A stretch of DNA of 51,028 nucleotides, taken from positions 1 through 51,028 of the IMG/VR virus record IMGVR_UViG_3300022074_000070. The stretch is one strand, 5' to 3'. A program made the position numbers and the translations under genes. The stretch is from a virus. The notes beneath the pieces are model-generated. The model did no database searches. It saw only the letters and a list, made by a program, of their open reading frames with translations, and was not told where the DNA came from. Shown here one piece after another: positions 10,566-49,441 of the stretch (within the stretch, counting starts at the first letter, position 1; each line of letters opens with the position of its first letter).

Positions 10566-11894
10566 TTAAACCATTCCAAATGGGTTGCCTTCGCTGAAGT
10601 CAATAATGTCGTCACCTAAACTTTCAAAGGTTACGCTCTCTGAATATTTAGGGTCAGCAGTTGCTTGCTCATCTCTATTGTCCAGAACTATCTGTGCTCC
10701 AGACTCCGATCCCACAATCAATTCACCGATAGCAAATGATCCAGTAGGTGTTTTGAGTTTTACAAATCCTTCTCCCGCATCCCATTCAACTAGGTTTGCA
10801 GTAGTTCCTGTTACACTTCCAGTAACTATTTCTGGAACCGTAAATGCACCTGTAATTCCTGCAGGAGCAGCAGTAAATGCAGCAGTTGCAGATGTATATC
10901 CGCTACCCGCGTTAGTAATATCTATAAGTCTTACACTCTTATAACCTGATCCACCACTTAAAATATTGATCGCAGTTAATACTCCATTAGTAAAAGTAGG
11001 AACTAATGTTGCTGCTATACCACCACTATCAGGTGCCGATACATTTAAAATTGCTCTATCTTCATCATACCCTTCTCCACCATTTATTATATTGACTGTT
11101 CTAATCTGTCCATCCTTTACCACTGATCTGATAACAGCAGATGATATCGGAGATCCGCTACTAACAGTTATATTAACCATGAATGCTTCTGCAGTTGCAC
11201 CTGTACCATCACCACTGATTGTAATTAAAGGTGTTTCATTATACTTGCTACCATTATCACTAATGTAAATATTAGTAATTGCACCACTATCTATTACAGG
11301 ATTTCCAGTTGCTGTAGTTCCGTTTGTAGTGAGGTAATAATGCTTAACAGTATAACCATAATCGACAAGTTCCTCATCATTATCAAATACATCTCCTTTC
11401 TCGTCGCTGTACTCGAATAGTTCAGCTTTCAGTTTATAAACATAACCTTTACCTAACTGATAGAAAGGTTCTTCATGTTCTACAAATTTTATCTCAAAGT
11501 AATTACTTGTTAATGGAAGATATATAAGATCTCCTTCTTGAGGTCTTTCTGGAGCTTTGAAATCTTTATTCAGTAGAAGAAATTGTGATATAAGATCCGA
11601 AAATCTTTGCTGAGATATAACCATCGTTATCTCATCAGTCTGTGCTACACCAAACTTTGTAAGCAAGTCTCCCCCACCTTGGAAACCATCAAAATTTTCC
11701 ATGTATGCTTCTATTAAATATGCATCATTAAACTCACCAATTACTTCCTCATTAAACACACCGTCCGTCTGCATTATCTCTCTAGGACAGTATAGAATAT
11801 CCATCCCAAACATTTTGAGATGCTCTTCTACTAAGTTTTGCATTAGAAACTGTTCGTTTCTAGTGCCATGTGTGAAGTAAGTGGTTCTTGCCAT
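10566..11894 (-). CDS. gp14: Neck protein gp14 with a glycine-rich module insert
   Basis: Neck subunit connecting head and tail. The first about 190 residues match T4 gp14: FGMDILYCPREI, DGVFNEEVIGEFNDAYLIEA and ENFDGFQGGGDLLTKFG correspond to T4's VYYIPRKM, DRVFNED and FDGFQGGGDFLSKFG. T4 gp14 is 256 aa. Here the protein is 442 aa because about residues 205-350 hold repeated beta-type units (SDNGSKYNETPLITISG, INGGEGYDE, LSGGSGYKS, NAGSGYTSA) of the kind seen in the tail fibres. The C-terminal DFSEGNPFGM again resembles T4-like gp14 ends. The ATG overlaps the gp13 stop (TAATG). Confidence 0.92.
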   Translation of the reverse strand: MARTTYFTHGTRNEQFLMQNLVEEHLKMFGMDILYCPREIMQTDGVFNEEVIGEFNDAYLIEAYMENFDGFQGGGDLLTKFGVAQTDEITMVISQQRFSDLISQFLLLNKDFKAPERPQEGDLIYLPLTSNYFEIKFVEHEEPFYQLGKGYVYKLKAELFEYSDEKGDVFDNDEELVDYGYTVKHYYLTTNGTTATGNPVIDSGAITNIYISDNGSKYNETPLITISGDGTGATAEAFMVNITVSSGSPISSAVIRSVVKDGQIRTVNIINGGEGYDEDRAILNVSAPDSGGIAATLVPTFTNGVLTAINILSGGSGYKSVRLIDITNAGSGYTSATAAFTAAPAGITGAFTVPEIVTGSVTGTTANLVEWDAGEGFVKLKTPTGSFAIGELIVGSESGAQIVLDNRDEQATADPKYSESVTFESLGDDIIDFSEGNPFGMV

Positions 11895-12709
11895 TATCCA
11901 ATCATGTCTAGTGGTGGTGTCTCATACTTAGATATCATTTCTTCTTCTAGTTTCTCTACCTTTGCTTTACCTTCGTTGTATATAAACTCACCGTTCATTG
12001 TAATTCCACCTGGCAACTGTGCTCCTTGGAACTTGATTAAGTTAGCACCCCACTGTCTTTGTATCAATGCAGAAACATATCTCTTCAACCAGACATCATT
12101 ATATACATCAGCAAACTGAGCAGGATCTACCGCACGATAACATTCTAAAACTAGGTATTGATCTGCAGGAACATCAGTTTTAAAATCTAAATCAAGATAC
12201 AACCTGTCACCACGCATCTGATATCTAATCTGTTTCTGTCCTTCTAACAGATAGTAGATATCTTCTAATCTTCTATTGACCATTTCATATGTAAGAATCT
12301 CTGTCTGTGTAAGATCCCAAAGGTCATTCAATCTCCACTGATACCTAACATCAAATAAGTTTGTGACATTTTTAGATGTAAAATCAAAACATTTAATAAC
12401 AGATGTCACGTATGGTGGCATCTTAAGATAGTTGTTCTGTTCAGAAAATGTAATAGTTTGATTATTGGAGGTACCAGAAGTAACAGTAGTATCAGTATCT
12501 GTTGTCATAGCATCCACCATCAACTGACTATACTTAACTTTTAGATGAGTTCTAATGTAACCATCCATGTGCCTTTCATTGTAAAACTGGACAGCATCGT
12601 CCACTAGATCATCTATCTGATCATCCTCTATGTTTATTTCTAGGACTGGTGCACCATTTTGACGTAATGCATAATCTATAAGTCCCTGTCTGGTAGCTGG
12701 TTTTGCCAT
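11894..12709 (-). CDS. gp13: Neck protein gp13
   Basis: Head-completion and neck protein, partner of gp14. It is 271 aa (T4 309 aa). N-terminal LIDYALRQNGAPVLEINI ... EDDQIDDLVDDAVQFYNERH aligns with T4 gp13 ([34 protein letters not shown]). The central ILTYEMVNRRLEDIYYL and YLDLDFKTDVPADQYLVLE are typical of the family. The start lies directly after the stop of the giant subtilase gene (1-bp gap) and has no clear ribosome binding site, so coupled translation is likely. Confidence 0.93.
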   Translation of the reverse strand: MAKPATRQGLIDYALRQNGAPVLEINIEDDQIDDLVDDAVQFYNERHMDGYIRTHLKVKYSQLMVDAMTTDTDTTVTSGTSNNQTITFSEQNNYLKMPPYVTSVIKCFDFTSKNVTNLFDVRYQWRLNDLWDLTQTEILTYEMVNRRLEDIYYLLEGQKQIRYQMRGDRLYLDLDFKTDVPADQYLVLECYRAVDPAQFADVYNDVWLKRYVSALIQRQWGANLIKFQGAQLPGGITMNGEFIYNEGKAKVEKLEEEMISKYETPPLDMIG

Positions 12710-12710
12710 G

Positions 12711-15700
12711 TTAGGTAGGGTTGATGTTGAATCTAATTCTTACATAATATGTAGTATTTGCATTAAGGTTAACAGCACCTGGTAATGTGTAAGAATTTAA
12801 GTTTGTTGAGTTACCAAGAGATTGGTGAACAATACTTGCAAATGTATTTGCAGGAGAGAACTGCCAATCACTAGAGGTATGCTGATATCCTGTTTTCATT
12901 GCAATAGAATTTACATTTATTGTTGGGTTGAATGCAGGAGTGATAACCTGTATTTCTGGTTGATCAACTAAAGGTGTTGTAAAGTTGACTGCAGCAGTGT
13001 ATGCACTCTCTAGACCAGGCGTTGCATTGTCTCTAAATTTAACTTGAACTGAATAAGAAGTATCAAAATCTAAAGTTGAAACTGGAACTGTTAGTGATGT
13101 TAAGTTACCTTCATCTCCGTTTGCAAATGACTGAACTGTATCATATACAGTCACATTATCTGCAACTCTTCTTATTCTCCAAAAACTAGAGAAGTGTGTA
13201 GATCCTGCATACTCAGGAACAAACGCACTTGTAGTAATAACTGGTTGTCTAGAATAGGTTTTATTTGTATCTGGGTCAATAGTTGGTGTGACGCTTGTAG
13301 GTCCTGATACAAACTCAGACTCATTAACAGTCAGCGTTGCAGCAGTGGATGTTACTGTGGTTGCGTTAGTGTTTGTTAATACACAACGGAACTGTTCAGA
13401 TGGAGTTGTTGGATAAACTGTAGTAGGAGTTGTATACGATGCTGAGTTTGCACCATTTATATTACTCCAGTTTGCTCCAGAGTTTAATGATTTCTGCCAC
13501 TGATAAGATACAACACCACTTGTAATCGAAGCAACAATAGTAAACGTCGCAGTGTTACCTTCAGTGACTGCAGTTGAGTTTGGTTGTGTACCAATTGTTA
13601 TAACACGTAAAACTGTTAGTTCTCCATGTGTAGAAGTAATATCTGCTGCAGCACCTACAAGAGATGCGACTGCTCTGTAACGATCTAGATTGTCATTAGC
13701 AAATACTAGAGTAGGTGTTGTATATGTTGCATTTGTTGCACCACCCACAGGACTATAGTTTGAACCACCGTCATCAGATCTCTCCCATTGGTAAGTTACA
13801 GTTCCACTGCTAGAAGTTGTTGCTAGTGTAAATTGTGCAGTCGCACCTTCATTAGCAGTTGCGTTTACTGGTTGTGATGTGATAGAAAATGTTCTTTGAA
13901 CTGTTAAAACAACCGCATTGGTTGTTGCGGGACTAGCAGCACCGACTGCACTGATAACGCAACGATACTGATCATCATGGTCATCTGCATAGTATGCAAG
14001 TCCAGTTGTATATGATGCTGAGGTTGCTCCACTAAGTGTGTTCCAAACAGCTCCACCATTATCTGATTTCTCCCACTGATATGTCACACTAGGTGTATGT
14101 GATGAGAAACCTCCTGCTTCACCGCCACCACCACCACTAGGAGTGTCAAACTGATCTGTTTCAAATGAAGATGACGCAGCGTTACCACCTACAGGTGCCA
14201 TTGTAACTCCACCCAATGTGGTAAATGTTGCAGTCTGTCCTTCATCAACTGTTGCAGGGGATGGTTGAGATGATACAACAACTGTTACAGTTTCTACTTG
14301 TAATGTAGCAGCATTAGATGGTATAGATGTAGCACCCGCACATGAAAGAACACAACGATATTGATATTCATCATACGCTGTAGTTAATGCAGGTGTAGTA
14401 TATGTTGAAGTTGTTCCACCAGTTCCTTCAGATACATTAGACCATGATGCTCCATCTGTAATAGATACTTGCCACTGGAATGTAATATCTTCTGAATCAT
14501 TATCTGATGTATTGGCAGCAACACCAAAAGATACTGTCCCTCCAACTGAACCAGTTATATTGACTGGTTGTGATGTAATATTAATTGTTCTTTGAACAAA
14601 CAATCTAGCAACAGATGAGATAACCTCACTTGCACCTGTTGCGTTTAGTTTACATCGGTAGTAATCACCGTAACTGTCATCATATGTCGTAGAACCAGTA
14701 GCATAAGTTGTAGTGTTAGCACCACTAATATCTTGATAATTTATACCATCACCGTTCTCAGATTTTTGCCATTGATATGTAACAGTAGCACTATCCAAAG
14801 TAGAACCCACTGCTGTAAATGATCCTGCAGCAGGAGAAATAGGTGTGGAGTTGACTGGTTGTGTATCTACAGTAATAGTTCTGGATACTGTTAGTGTAAC
14901 TGGGTTTGTGTAAGATGGTGCAACTGTAGTGCTAGTTTCTAACTGACAACGATATTGAAAATTATTCTTGGCATAATCATCATCTACAGTGAGTGTATTA
15001 GTAAATGCTCCACTATATCCACTACCATTAGATCCAATATACCAACCTACTCCACCATTAACTGAGATCTCCCATTGGAACATAATTGTTGATCCGTCAT
15101 CACTGATACCCGCTACAGGTCCAAAGTTAACTGTTCCACCAGATCCTGCTACGATACTTTGATTAGTTGGTTGCTGCGTAATTGTTACTAGAACTCCAGT
15201 TCCAGTTGTGGTGAATGCATATGATCTTGCATTGCTAGTTACGTTTTCTGTAACTGTAAAATTGTATGTTGTATCAAGATAATCAGAAGTAACAGTTCCT
15301 GATAAATTACCTGTTGCAGTGTTAAAGATCAAACCAGTAGCACCAATAGAGTCACCACTCAATGTATATGCTTCAAAGGTTGGTTCAGATGCAAATGTCT
15401 GTCCTGTCAAACCTAAATCTAAATTAACACTATCGCCATTATTATATGTTGCAAGAGTTCCCGCTGCTGTTGTCCAAGTTACACTTGTGTCAATGTAAGG
15501 ATAGAACATTCCACGTGATGTGGTTAACTCTGCACCAGTTCCATTGTAATTAAAGTCAACACCAGAATCTACAGGGTAATAAACTACAGGAGAACTTTGT
15601 GCAGCTGCTTCTTGTGTATCAGTAGATGATGTTAATGATGTTGATGTAGATACTACACCATCATAACTTTCATGTGTTTTTTCTTCTGTCTTAATCAGTG

Positions 15701-18212
15701 CGAGATAGTTATTAGTTCCACCACCAGTTGTACCTGCAGTAGCATTATTTGGTGCTGTAACTGTAATACTATTATTAAGAGCACTCTCTGCTTGTATGTT
15801 TAACCAACCAGATTGTGATAATGTAGATACGTTTATACCGCCAACTACTACACCACCACTACCGCCTGGTGCACTCGATACTGTGATAGTTCCTATCATA
15901 CCACCATGATTACCACACTGATAATAATAAGTTCCTGCTGTGTTTGGTGTCCAAGATACTGTTGCGTTACCTGTAGAACCTTGACCACTAGCAGTTGGTG
16001 TAGTTACGTTACTACCACCATTTGATACTCTGAGATAAAATGGGTGAATACTTGATACATTGCTTAAATTAAAATTAATTGTATCTCCAACGTATACACC
16101 TACTCCTGCGTTGCTACCACTAACAGAACCATTTCTATCTGTTCCACTAAGAGTATATACACTAGAGTTTGGTGCAGTTGTTGTTATATTATAAGTTGTT
16201 GGTGTAGAAGATCCTGCTCCTGCTGTAGATCCTGTAGTTCTAAGTTGTACTTTCCTACCTACATTTCCTAGGAAATGAGCTGAGTCAGCTGGATTGAATT
16301 TGATCTCTAAAAAACTATTTCCAGAAAGAGTGACATATGGATTGTCTATAAGTTTCTTATCTACTATGCTGTTTATGGGATAGTTCCCATGTGTACCTGT
16401 CCTAACATCACCAGTCGATCCTGTAGTTCTCGCAAATGCTTTTGCTAAACCGCATATATTATTTGTGGTTAATGTATATCCATTTTTACCGCACCACGCT
16501 GCAATAATACCCGCAGTAATAGGACCTGAGAATGATGTGCCATCTATGGTGCTATAATTTGTCGTGCTTGTATACGGTGTATTAGCAGTCCAATCATATG
16601 CAGGAAGTAATATTTTTTCGCCAGGTGCCACCGTTGTGCAACCAGATCCATAGTTAGAGAATATTGCCCATCTGTCATTATATGATGTAGCACCAACTGT
16701 AATTTTATTTTGGTTTGTATCTACATTATTAATACCACCGAGGGTATTATCAGTATATCCTGCTGTTCTTGCACCCGCTACACATTTAGTTTGTAAAGGT
16801 CCTGCAGTTACATCACTACTATTTTTAAATCCATTACCCGCAGATCTAACAATTATTATTTTATTAGATGTTGCTATAGTTCCTTCGATGTCATCTAACA
16901 TCTCTTCATCGGTTCCCGTATCATCTCCTGCATCATTCAACTCAATGTTAGGTGAGTTTGCTGTAGGAATGCCAGGTCCGAAGGATGCATTGATAACAGC
17001 TGGACGATTATTACCTTTATAGTTAGCATTACCACTGTCGTTATGATCTATAACTGCTTGATATGCTGCTAGTATTCCACTATAAGAACCAGTTACACTA
17101 CTACTAAAACACTTCAATGCATATATTGTTGCTCTTTTTGATATTCCAGCTGTCCTACCAGCTGCAAGAATAGCACACTGAGTTCCATGACCCGCATCAT
17201 CTTCATTATTAGAACCGTATGTACCAGAAAAATGACTTAACTGAAACACTCTATAGTTCTGTTGTTCAGCAGTACCATTAAGATCACTAACAAAATCAGG
17301 ATCATATAGTTCTGGATGTAGTGCTGCGTTGTTACCTGTTGGTCTACTAGCACCACGAACACCTGAGTCTAAGATGTAAATGTCTACACCATCACCATCT
17401 GCGTTTGTTCCTTGACTAAATTGTCTGTTTAAATATTGCCTATCCTGCTTTGTAATTCTATCTAAGTGCCAGAAATCGTGTATGTTTATTGTTCCATACC
17501 TATCAAGTGCTCCAGTAGTAAATCTTCCCATACCAGAATGAGTAGCACAATAATAGTATAAAATTGATGGTGTAGAAGAACTAACAGTTAATGTAGTTGC
17601 ACCATCTGTGCCAGGTGTTCCTGATACAACAACTCCAGATGTTAAGTCTCCTGTTCCACCTGTAGTATGTGTTCCATCTTGTGTTTCTGAGAATCTAAAT
17701 GGATGACCGCTGTTTGATGAGTCACTCTGATCAAATGCATAAGTTCCACCTTGTAAAAAACCTGTCTGATTATAGAACCTACTATAGGTACCACCCTGTG
17801 TTTGTGAGAAGACAAAAAAGTCACTACCACCAATATTTGAGACTTTTACATATATTGTACCAGAACCACTAGTTGTTATATTTCTTGTATTGCTTGTTGC
17901 TTGTCCTTCTGCAGGAGTATTGATATTACTAGATCCAGAGGTATCTACTGTTAGAGACGCCTCAGTAGGCATAGGATCTCCCGAATATACCTCAGCATCC
18001 CATGTAGCATTCTTAACTACATTCAACGCTCTTAATTGTGATATCAAATTACTTTGATACGCTGCAGGGCAGTCAAAAGTAACTATCTGAAATGATCTGA
18101 ATTGTTCTACAAAGGATAAGAAACCATATAATTTCAAGATCGCTGCACACGCTTGATCTATGCTATAGTTATCGTTGATCCTTACTATTACCTTCTTCAT
18201 TCTATGGTACAA
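12711..18212 (-). CDS. Giant virion-associated subtilisin-like protease with cupredoxin-like and Ig-like modules
   Basis: An 1833-aa multidomain protein just before gp13. Residues 1-76 look like a subtilase I9-type propeptide (VIVRIN ... FRSFQIVTF ... RALNVVKNATWDAEVY). Residues about 110-232 hold a cupredoxin-like module (GHPF with His170; CATHSGM with Cys222, His225, Met228). Residues about 270-600 form an S8 domain with Asp282 (YILDSGV), His342 (GHGTQ), oxyanion Asn460 (SAGNG) and Ser560 (GTSFSGP), so the catalytic set is complete. A second cupredoxin-like module lies at about 675-777 (IHPF; CGNHGGM). Six tandem Ig-like domains occupy about 1007-1634, followed by an FN3-like C-terminus. 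A TTG at 18212 is the likely start, since AAGGA lies 4 nt upstream; ATG at 18200 lacks well-placed spacing. I infer a virion protein at the neck or tail. Substrate is unknown. Confidence 0.88.
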   Translation of the reverse strand: MYHRMKKVIVRINDNYSIDQACAAILKLYGFLSFVEQFRSFQIVTFDCPAAYQSNLISQLRALNVVKNATWDAEVYSGDPMPTEASLTVDTSGSSNINTPAEGQATSNTRNITTSGSGTIYVKVSNIGGSDFFVFSQTQGGTYSRFYNQTGFLQGGTYAFDQSDSSNSGHPFRFSETQDGTHTTGGTGDLTSGVVVSGTPGTDGATTLTVSSSTPSILYYYCATHSGMGRFTTGALDRYGTINIHDFWHLDRITKQDRQYLNRQFSQGTNADGDGVDIYILDSGVRGASRPTGNNAALHPELYDPDFVSDLNGTAEQQNYRVFQLSHFSGTYGSNNEDDAGHGTQCAILAAGRTAGISKRATIYALKCFSSSVTGSYSGILAAYQAVIDHNDSGNANYKGNNRPAVINASFGPGIPTANSPNIELNDAGDDTGTDEEMLDDIEGTIATSNKIIIVRSAGNGFKNSSDVTAGPLQTKCVAGARTAGYTDNTLGGINNVDTNQNKITVGATSYNDRWAIFSNYGSGCTTVAPGEKILLPAYDWTANTPYTSTTNYSTIDGTSFSGPITAGIIAAWCGKNGYTLTTNNICGLAKAFARTTGSTGDVRTGTHGNYPINSIVDKKLIDNPYVTLSGNSFLEIKFNPADSAHFLGNVGRKVQLRTTGSTAGAGSSTPTTYNITTTAPNSSVYTLSGTDRNGSVSGSNAGVGVYVGDTINFNLSNVSSIHPFYLRVSNGGSNVTTPTASGQGSTGNATVSWTPNTAGTYYYQCGNHGGMIGTITVSSAPGGSGGVVVGGINVSTLSQSGWLNIQAESALNNSITVTAPNNATAGTTGGGTNNYLALIKTEEKTHESYDGVVSTSTSLTSSTDTQEAAAQSSPVVYYPVDSGVDFNYNGTGAELTTSRGMFYPYIDTSVTWTTAAGTLATYNNGDSVNLDLGLTGQTFASEPTFEAYTLSGDSIGATGLIFNTATGNLSGTVTSDYLDTTYNFTVTENVTSNARSYAFTTTGTGVLVTITQQPTNQSIVAGSGGTVNFGPVAGISDDGSTIMFQWEISVNGGVGWYIGSNGSGYSGAFTNTLTVDDDYAKNNFQYRCQLETSTTVAPSYTNPVTLTVSRTITVDTQPVNSTPISPAAGSFTAVGSTLDSATVTYQWQKSENGDGINYQDISGANTTTYATGSTTYDDSYGDYYRCKLNATGASEVISSVARLFVQRTINITSQPVNITGSVGGTVSFGVAANTSDNDSEDITFQWQVSITDGASWSNVSEGTGGTTSTYTTPALTTAYDEYQYRCVLSCAGATSIPSNAATLQVETVTVVVSSQPSPATVDEGQTATFTTLGGVTMAPVGGNAASSSFETDQFDTPSGGGGGEAGGFSSHTPSVTYQWEKSDNGGAVWNTLSGATSASYTTGLAYYADDHDDQYRCVISAVGAASPATTNAVVLTVQRTFSITSQPVNATANEGATAQFTLATTSSSGTVTYQWERSDDGGSNYSPVGGATNATYTTPTLVFANDNLDRYRAVASLVGAAADITSTHGELTVLRVITIGTQPNSTAVTEGNTATFTIVASITSGVVSYQWQKSLNSGANWSNINGANSASYTTPTTVYPTTPSEQFRCVLTNTNATTVTSTAATLTVNESEFVSGPTSVTPTIDPDTNKTYSRQPVITTSAFVPEYAGSTHFSSFWRIRRVADNVTVYDTVQSFANGDEGNLTSLTVPVSTLDFDTSYSVQVKFRDNATPGLESAYTAAVNFTTPLVDQPEIQVITPAFNPTINVNSIAMKTGYQHTSSDWQFSPANTFASIVHQSLGNSTNLNSYTLPGAVNLNANTTYYVRIRFNINPT
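13310..15192 (-). repeat. Six tandem Ig-like domain repeats inside the subtilase gene
   Basis: Each unit is about 90-130 residues. It opens with a TxQP box (TQQPTN, DTQPVN, TSQPVN, SSQPSP, TSQPVN, GTQPNS), has the Trp box YQW[EQ][KR]S near its middle and the Tyr-Arg-Cys box (QYRCVLS and the like) near its end, then LTV. This is the Ig fold signature. The fourth unit carries an extra Gly-rich insertion (SGGGGGEAGG). Ig-like domains on phage tails are commonly weak carbohydrate binders. Confidence 0.8.
15880..16195 (-). other. Cupredoxin-like module 2 (in subtilase gene)
   Basis: Encodes residues about 675-777 of the subtilase protein, downstream of the protease domain. Motif DTINFNLSNVSSIHPFYLRV ... 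GTYYYQCGNHGGMIGTI provides His, then Cys-x2-His-x2-Met. Confidence 0.6.
17522..17882 (-). other. Cupredoxin-like module 1 (in subtilase gene)
   Basis: Encodes residues about 110-230 of the subtilase protein. The order YAFDQSDSSNSGHPFRFS ... LYYYCATHSGMG gives the His...Cys-x2-His-x2-Met ligand pattern of type-1 copper sites (His170, Cys222, His225, Met228). It lies between propeptide and catalytic domain. Metal binding is inferred. Confidence 0.6.
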
Positions 18213-18227
18213 TAAGTCCTTCAGATC

Positions 18228-18235
18228 TATTTAGT
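18228..18235 (-). promoter_or_regulatory. Possible variant late promoter ACTAAATA before the subtilase gene
   Basis: CTAAATA-type box 16 nt upstream of the TTG start, located just after the intrinsic terminator. Because the terminator ends the upstream unit, a promoter is expected here, and this is the best candidate. Confidence 0.35.
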
Positions 18236-18838: not shown

Positions 18839-19402
18839 TTATAGCATAACATCCTTCATATTTCTAGTCTTAAACATTAAAGTTATTCTAAGGGAATCGC
18901 AATATTGACTCACTGGTCTGACTCCGTGCCAAACATTGCCAGGAAAACCTAATACAGATCTGAATTTAGGTAGTACCGAATTGGTTATTAATCTTTTTTC
19001 TTTATCCCAAAGAATAGTTTCTCCTCCCCAATCAACATTCCAATCATTATTTACATATACAATTATAGTTTTGCTTGTATCTAAAGAGTCATCAGTATGT
19101 AATTTTTGATCTTGACCGCATGTTTGAGCATTTGCATAACAACGAATCAAAACATCTTCTGGATCTAAGTGAGATTTAATATCTTTCCATACATCAAGTA
19201 TTAGTCCATTAAGTTCATTCTCACAATTATAACAAGACTGCCCTTCTCTAGATGGTCCTCCAAAAAAGATAGACCATTTGGGTATACTTCTCGTCATTAA
19301 ACTTTTATGACTACGATATCCCCATGTCCAAGAAGATTCATGTAAAAATTTGCACAATGCAATTGCCCTAGATTCGGACAATACATTTTCATGATAAAAC
19401 AT
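18839..19402 (-). CDS. 2-oxoglutarate/Fe(II)-dependent oxygenase
   Basis: A 187-aa enzyme of the 2OG-Fe(II) dioxygenase (prolyl-hydroxylase-like) superfamily. It carries the iron facial triad HxD...H: His102 and Asp104 in LHTDDS, and His159 in GNVWHGV. The 2OG-binding Arg is at residue 172 in LRITLMF. WGGETILW near residues 125-132 is the typical strand between the two motifs. Substrate cannot be told from sequence. Such oxygenases are frequent in cyanomyovirus genomes. Here it is embedded between a fibre-like gene and small structural genes, so hydroxylation of a virion protein is one option and a host metabolite another. It starts 18 bp after the 313-aa gene. Confidence 0.88.
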   Translation of the reverse strand: MFYHENVLSESRAIALCKFLHESSWTWGYRSHKSLMTRSIPKWSIFFGGPSREGQSCYNCENELNGLILDVWKDIKSHLDPEDVLIRCYANAQTCGQDQKLHTDDSLDTSKTIIVYVNNDWNVDWGGETILWDKEKRLITNSVLPKFRSVLGFPGNVWHGVRPVSQYCDSLRITLMFKTRNMKDVML

Positions 19403-20411: not shown

Positions 20412-20419
20412 TATTTATA
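20412..20419 (-). promoter_or_regulatory. Late promoter TATAAATA before the 313-aa fibre gene
   Basis: Perfect late box in the 73-bp AT-rich gap after the giant fibre gene, giving a leader of roughly 45 nt. It should drive the fibre, oxygenase and small genes down to the terminator near 18250. Confidence 0.65.
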
Positions 20420-31346: not shown

Positions 31347-31354
31347 TATTTATA
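31347..31354 (-). promoter_or_regulatory. Late promoter TATAAATA before the 177-aa gene and giant fibre
   Basis: Perfect late box overlapping the stop of the 2415-aa gene, 21 nt before the 177-aa gene. It shares the extended context TATAAATAACC with the box before gp8 at 49434-49441. Confidence 0.65.
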
Positions 31355-49433: not shown

Positions 49434-49441
49434 TATTTATA
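49434..49441 (-). promoter_or_regulatory. Late promoter TATAAATA upstream of gp8
   Basis: Perfect late box overlapping the stop codon of the upstream gene, 25 nt before the gp8 ATG. Same extended TATAAATAACC context as the box at 31347-31354. Confidence 0.65.

Follow-up and report, generated by a model that had tools for sequence, protein, structure and literature searches.

The locus examined here raised the question of why a cyanophage would carry a subtilisin-like (S8) protease within a giant gene next to the neck genes, and where such an enzyme would act. The window, in itself a virus record of 51,028 bases, includes genes for portal, sheath, terminase, gp15, gp14, gp13 and giant baseplate and fibre proteins in that order, and its DNA identity to P-HM1, P-HM2 and MED4-213 was 84-85%. 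Gene order and DNA identity put it close to Eurybiavirus, a group of Prochlorococcus cyanophages. The open reading frame of interest is located at 12711..18212 with the minus strand as its coding strand, the strand having not been given in the earlier note. It opens with a TTG at 18212, and the start column M1-K2 was kept across homologues, indicating that the family-conserved start is the likely ATG at 18200 (1829 aa) rather than the TTG. Residue numbering below counts from TTG 18212 (1833-residue chain); counted from ATG 18200 the catalytic residues are D278, H338, N456 and S556.

The gene directly downstream (11894..12709, minus strand) was identified by tblastn to annotated gp13 as the gp13 neck protein gene, and the position before gp13 given in the earlier note recurred in 45 of the 45 family loci where gp13 was in view. 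A gp21 prohead protease gene, with P-HM1 gp21 as its counterpart, is present at 564-1211 of the window. No paralogues of any segment of the giant S8 protein were detected elsewhere in the window at E 1e-3. The region 18839-19402 (minus strand) received the PHROG label 'DNA endonuclease V' (phrog_274, E=4e-17); its sequence (HTDD...FPGNVWHGVRPV) resembles a 2OG-Fe(II) oxygenase, an annotated 2OG-Fe(II) oxygenase is located near gp13 in S-WAM2, and the PHROG label appears to be wrong.

A Peptidase_S8 catalytic domain was assigned to residues 242-640 (16293..17489, minus strand). Scanned alone, this region matched Pfam PF00082 at E=5.1e-24 with 85.5 bits, where 21.8 is the cut-off, and the aqualysin-1 profile at E=5e-22. 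Pfam and NCBIfam scans of the whole 1833-residue protein missed the domain, which is probably why relatives have been labelled 'hypothetical protein'. The residues that the earlier note had placed in S8 motifs, namely the catalytic Asp282 (17367..17369), His342 (17187..17189) and Ser560 (16533..16535) and the oxyanion-hole Asn460 (16833..16835), all on the minus strand, were borne out by the Pfam match, by alignment of D, H and S with those of aqualysin-1 and by their invariance. The motifs read D282SGV, H342GTQ and GTS560FS, of the DTG/HGTH/GTSMA type, and N460 falls within an RSAGNG oxyanion motif that aligned to the AAGN of P-SSM2 and S-WAM2.

All four residues were invariant across the family (64/64) and unchanged in each readable copy among 81 distinct sequences, the gaps being truncations. 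They were also invariant in 76 of 76 members of a distant family of standalone cyanophage S8 proteases, and a cross-family alignment had few columns in common, the active-site surroundings among them. As 144 of the 400 S8 columns (about a third) were invariant within the close family, it is the invariance across families that carries most weight. Median dN/dS was 0.15 for both the S8 and the C-terminal domains, 0.20-0.30 for other modules and 0.55 for residues 81-110, which follow the propeptide; constraint on the protein is strongest in the S8 and C-terminal domains.

The nearest PDB sequences to the catalytic domain were aqualysin-1 and proteinase K, and the proteinase K-like subtilases (aqualysin-1, proteinase K and VPR), its closest relatives of solved structure, are secreted enzymes without an Ig arm or cupredoxin. 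The AlphaFold2 model of the S8 part, built from an input alignment of close homologues only, had a pLDDT mostly <50 and no formed active site, and a Foldseek search with the model found subtilisins (best E 8e-5, TMt about 0.5). An intact S8 protease, kept by selection and apparently working, is well supported by the sequence comparisons.

The N-terminal segment preceding the enzyme, residues 5-80 (17973..18200, minus strand), is a probable I9-like propeptide. Residues 5-71 were predicted with good confidence to fold as beta-alpha-beta-beta-alpha-beta (E-H-E-E-H-E), the I9 topology, with an AlphaFold2 pLDDT of about 80-92 over most of the segment, and pro-Tk-subtilisin was among the Foldseek matches, its alignment with the model spanning about 640 columns. 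The I9 propeptide pattern proposed earlier was thus retained as a predicted topology, but Pfam PF05922 gave no match and a PDB profile search was negative, so the segment is called I9-like and is not filed as I9. An hhalign comparison with the N-termini of the standalone S8 family (phrog_9158) also gave no match.

The propeptide is not joined directly to the enzyme. A cupredoxin-like module between the two was described in the earlier note, and predicted fold and Foldseek agreed, placing cupredoxin module 1 at residues 100-238 (17499..17915, minus strand; rusticyanin, E=2e-5) with ligands H170, C222, H225 and M228 invariant in 64 of 64. A second module absent from that note was located after the enzyme at residues 665-785 (15858..16220, minus strand; pLDDT about 90), its ligands H723, C766, H769 and M772 being invariant in 43/43 and the whole module missing from 23 relatives. 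Both modules carry the full set of type 1 copper ligands (His-Cys-His-Met) and matched rusticyanin and plastocyanin. Tail-fibre, baseplate-connector and virion structural proteins of cyanophages also contained the cupredoxin fold. In S-BM3 (L002:6307-14253) a cupredoxin with H-C-H-M ligands is inserted within the S8 catalytic domain at about residues 288-395, and in S-CAM4 a cupredoxin follows the S8 domain. With cupredoxins before, inside and after S8 in different phages, the module seems to move and resembles a mobile building block of virion-type proteins in cyanophages. The invariant ligands and the recurrent placing around phage S8 domains are compatible with a virion-borne zymogen in which the copper module between propeptide and enzyme gates activation, surface redox state or copper switching the protease on at contact, a scheme we consider very unlikely.

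Beyond module 2, residues 790-890 (15543..15845, minus strand) had no confident fold (pLDDT mostly below 50) and were followed by a predicted beta-sandwich domain at residues 893-1005 (15198..15536, minus strand), the strands of which had a pLDDT of about 75-90 over most of their length. The six Ig-like repeats noted earlier were recovered at residues 1006-1632 (13317..15197, minus strand) from six [YF]QW motifs, a pLDDT of about 90 and Foldseek matches to the Ig arrays of titin and Robo2. These modules matched phrog_613, phrog_25852 and, weakly, phrog_4069, which are phage head, tail and Hoc-like families. The chain ends in two FN3-like domains, residues 1640-1833 (12714..13295, minus strand), predicted with moderate pLDDT and regarded as a candidate virion anchor. 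In a search of the phage collection their sequence was matched beyond the family only in S-BM3 (43.6%), and no link of the pair to a capsid-binding domain was found in PHROG matches or in that search. The module order of the giant protein as a whole is as given by prediction.

Parts of this layout have counterparts in T4. Hoc displays Ig-like domains on the head and has no enzyme, while fibritin (Wac), encoded before gp13 in T4, is a trimeric coiled coil, also without an enzyme; the window protein shares Ig-like domains with the former and its gene place with the latter.

The novelty implied by the earlier note did not hold, as the gene itself is already named in related isolates. An S8 peptidase, T4-GC518, was reported by Sullivan et al. 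2010 among 70 genes that P-HM1 and P-HM2 had and all other cyanophages in the set compared lacked (PMC3037559). GenBank labels the P-HM1 gene (PHM1_104) as T4-GC519, a hypothetical protein, and since PHM1_104 is the single S8 match in P-HM1, T4-GC518 and T4-GC519 are almost certainly the same. PHM1_104 and its homologues in P-HM2 and MED4-213 (phrog_27200) were 78-81% identical to the window protein over the full length, occupied the same place before gp13 and differed from it by sequence divergence only. No functional studies of cyanophage S8 proteases were found in the literature beyond the 2010 mention.

The annotated 'peptidase S8' of S-BM3 (WDS61281.1, 2648 aa) resembles the window protein in its S8 domain (about 39%), Ig repeats and C-terminal domain. 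It differs in being about 800 residues longer, in having its cupredoxin within S8 and in being followed by tail-fibre genes instead of gp13. Standalone S8 genes have been annotated in S-WAM2, S-H9-1, S-H38, P-SSM2 and others. The standalone phrog_9158 proteases (S-WAM2 YP_009324356, S-CAM4 gp074, P-SSM2 PSSM2_297) likewise have an N-terminal extension, an S8 domain and the four residues, and their genes are neighbours of tail-fibre or hoc genes; in some of the proteins a cupredoxin follows at the C-terminus. They are, however, mostly about 550-1000 aa and at a different locus, their N-terminal profile does not match that of the window protein, and no Ig arm was detected in the three examined. 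The phrog_9158 family, listed as of unknown function, was represented by 80 IMG/VR loci in addition to L095:7560-9218, L096:6800-8848 and L094:7370-9205; in those isolates that were examined it lay within tail-fibre clusters, and a CxxHxxM cupredoxin motif followed the enzyme in 39.

The fused S8-Ig form was found by BLAST of the phage collection in only four phages, and of eight records of related phages tested for S8, four gave no detectable match. In ACG-2014b the gene before gp13 encodes a 1730-aa Mtd_N protein and no S8 was detectable in the genome. A 7-kb MAG contig (PBPE01000110.1, L177) binned as 'Dehalococcoidia bacterium' carried an S8 gene 72% identical to that of the window, and is probably misbinned cyanophage DNA. 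This contig was the one match in a genome scan that relies on short conserved peptides and therefore covers the less distant cellular S8s; within that reach, no cellular origin for the S8 domain was retained.

Expression late in infection is reasonably supported by the promoter region. The TAAATA core of the T4-type late promoter motif was located at 18228..18233 (minus strand), 33 to 28 bases upstream of the ATG, where the window reads ACTAAATA. The published cyanophage late promoter motif, NATAAATA (PMC2984593), was present in 44 of 57 homologues, 33-37 bases ahead of the start, and a further 12 had TAAATA, the two together lying about 31-37 bases upstream. The motif or its core therefore preceded the gene in 56 of the 57 relatives against a chance expectation of 0.008 NATAAATA per 60 bases, although the homologues are related and do not amount to 57 independent observations. 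Three of four exact TATAAATA late motifs in the window were located about 20-60 bases before minus-strand gene starts (20412-20419, 31347-31354 and 49434-49441, minus strand), the total count of exact TATAAATA in the window not being above chance. A terminator-like hairpin before the gene was no better than shuffles (z -0.35) and was discarded. A simple hydropathy scan of the giant protein detected no signal-peptide-like or transmembrane segment, which makes the Sec route of secreted subtilisins unlikely.

Both the layout and the strict conservation are suggestive of a protease carried on the virus particle. The earlier note had proposed a virion-borne, self-activating enzyme; the intact S8 domain, the probable propeptide and the Ig arm agree with this, and the virion location is indirectly supported by the late motif, the adjacency to neck genes, the lack of a signal peptide and the Ig-like, FN3-like and cupredoxin modules common to phage structural proteins. 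We infer self-activation, attachment point, virion location and substrate from these features. In the reading that we prefer, and hold at about even confidence, a late-made self-activating S8 protease is displayed on the virion via the Ig arm and probably cuts host-surface proteins at contact. The low confidence of the S8 model and the small number of phages with the fused form weigh against it. The protein would be synthesized late in infection without a signal peptide, its I9-like propeptide helping it to fold and keeping the enzyme inactive until self-cleavage, which would possibly leave cupredoxin 1 on the N-terminus of the enzyme. The C-terminal FN3-like domains would anchor it on the particle, the neck or head being the likeliest site, and the six Ig-like domains would form an arm holding the enzyme outward. 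On contact, cyanobacterial surface proteins would be cut, which would help the phage to reach or expose its receptor. The standalone S8 proteases of P-SSM2, S-WAM2 and S-CAM4 are encoded among tail-fibre and hoc genes, so that a link between protease and fibre is repeated.

The adjacency to gp13 would fit a role in assembly just as well, and virion maturation is the main, live rival to a role at the host surface. It is possible, at a rather low probability, that the enzyme processes its own chain or neck, whisker and fibre proteins late in the cell or on the new particle, beside gp21. The late promoter motif and the adjoining gp13 would suit such an enzyme, as would the S8 genes that adjoin fibre genes in other cyanophages. 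However, a prohead protease gene is already present in gp21, processing in the cell does not need a long Ig arm, and conserved neck proteins in general need no S8 enzyme since half of the related records tested had none detectable. A protease acting inside the host or after lysis, degrading host proteins for amino acids or removing a defence factor and forming no stable part of the virion, would be in keeping with the missing signal peptide and with the often broad specificity of subtilases, but is quite unlikely given the late motif and the fusion to Ig-like and FN3-like domains typical of virion proteins. Finally, the low-confidence structure model with its unformed active site could point to a catalytically dead S8 fold serving as a structural or binding domain. 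This is extremely unlikely, as the four active-site residues were invariant in about 80 sequences and in a distant family sharing few other columns.

The locus also illustrates that an enzyme domain within a giant repetitive phage protein can escape a whole-protein Pfam scan. Discussion of phage-tail enzymes usually centres on polysaccharide depolymerases; this one, if virions do display it, would instead cut protein at the host surface while held on an Ig arm, in phages whose hosts are among the most abundant photosynthetic cells.
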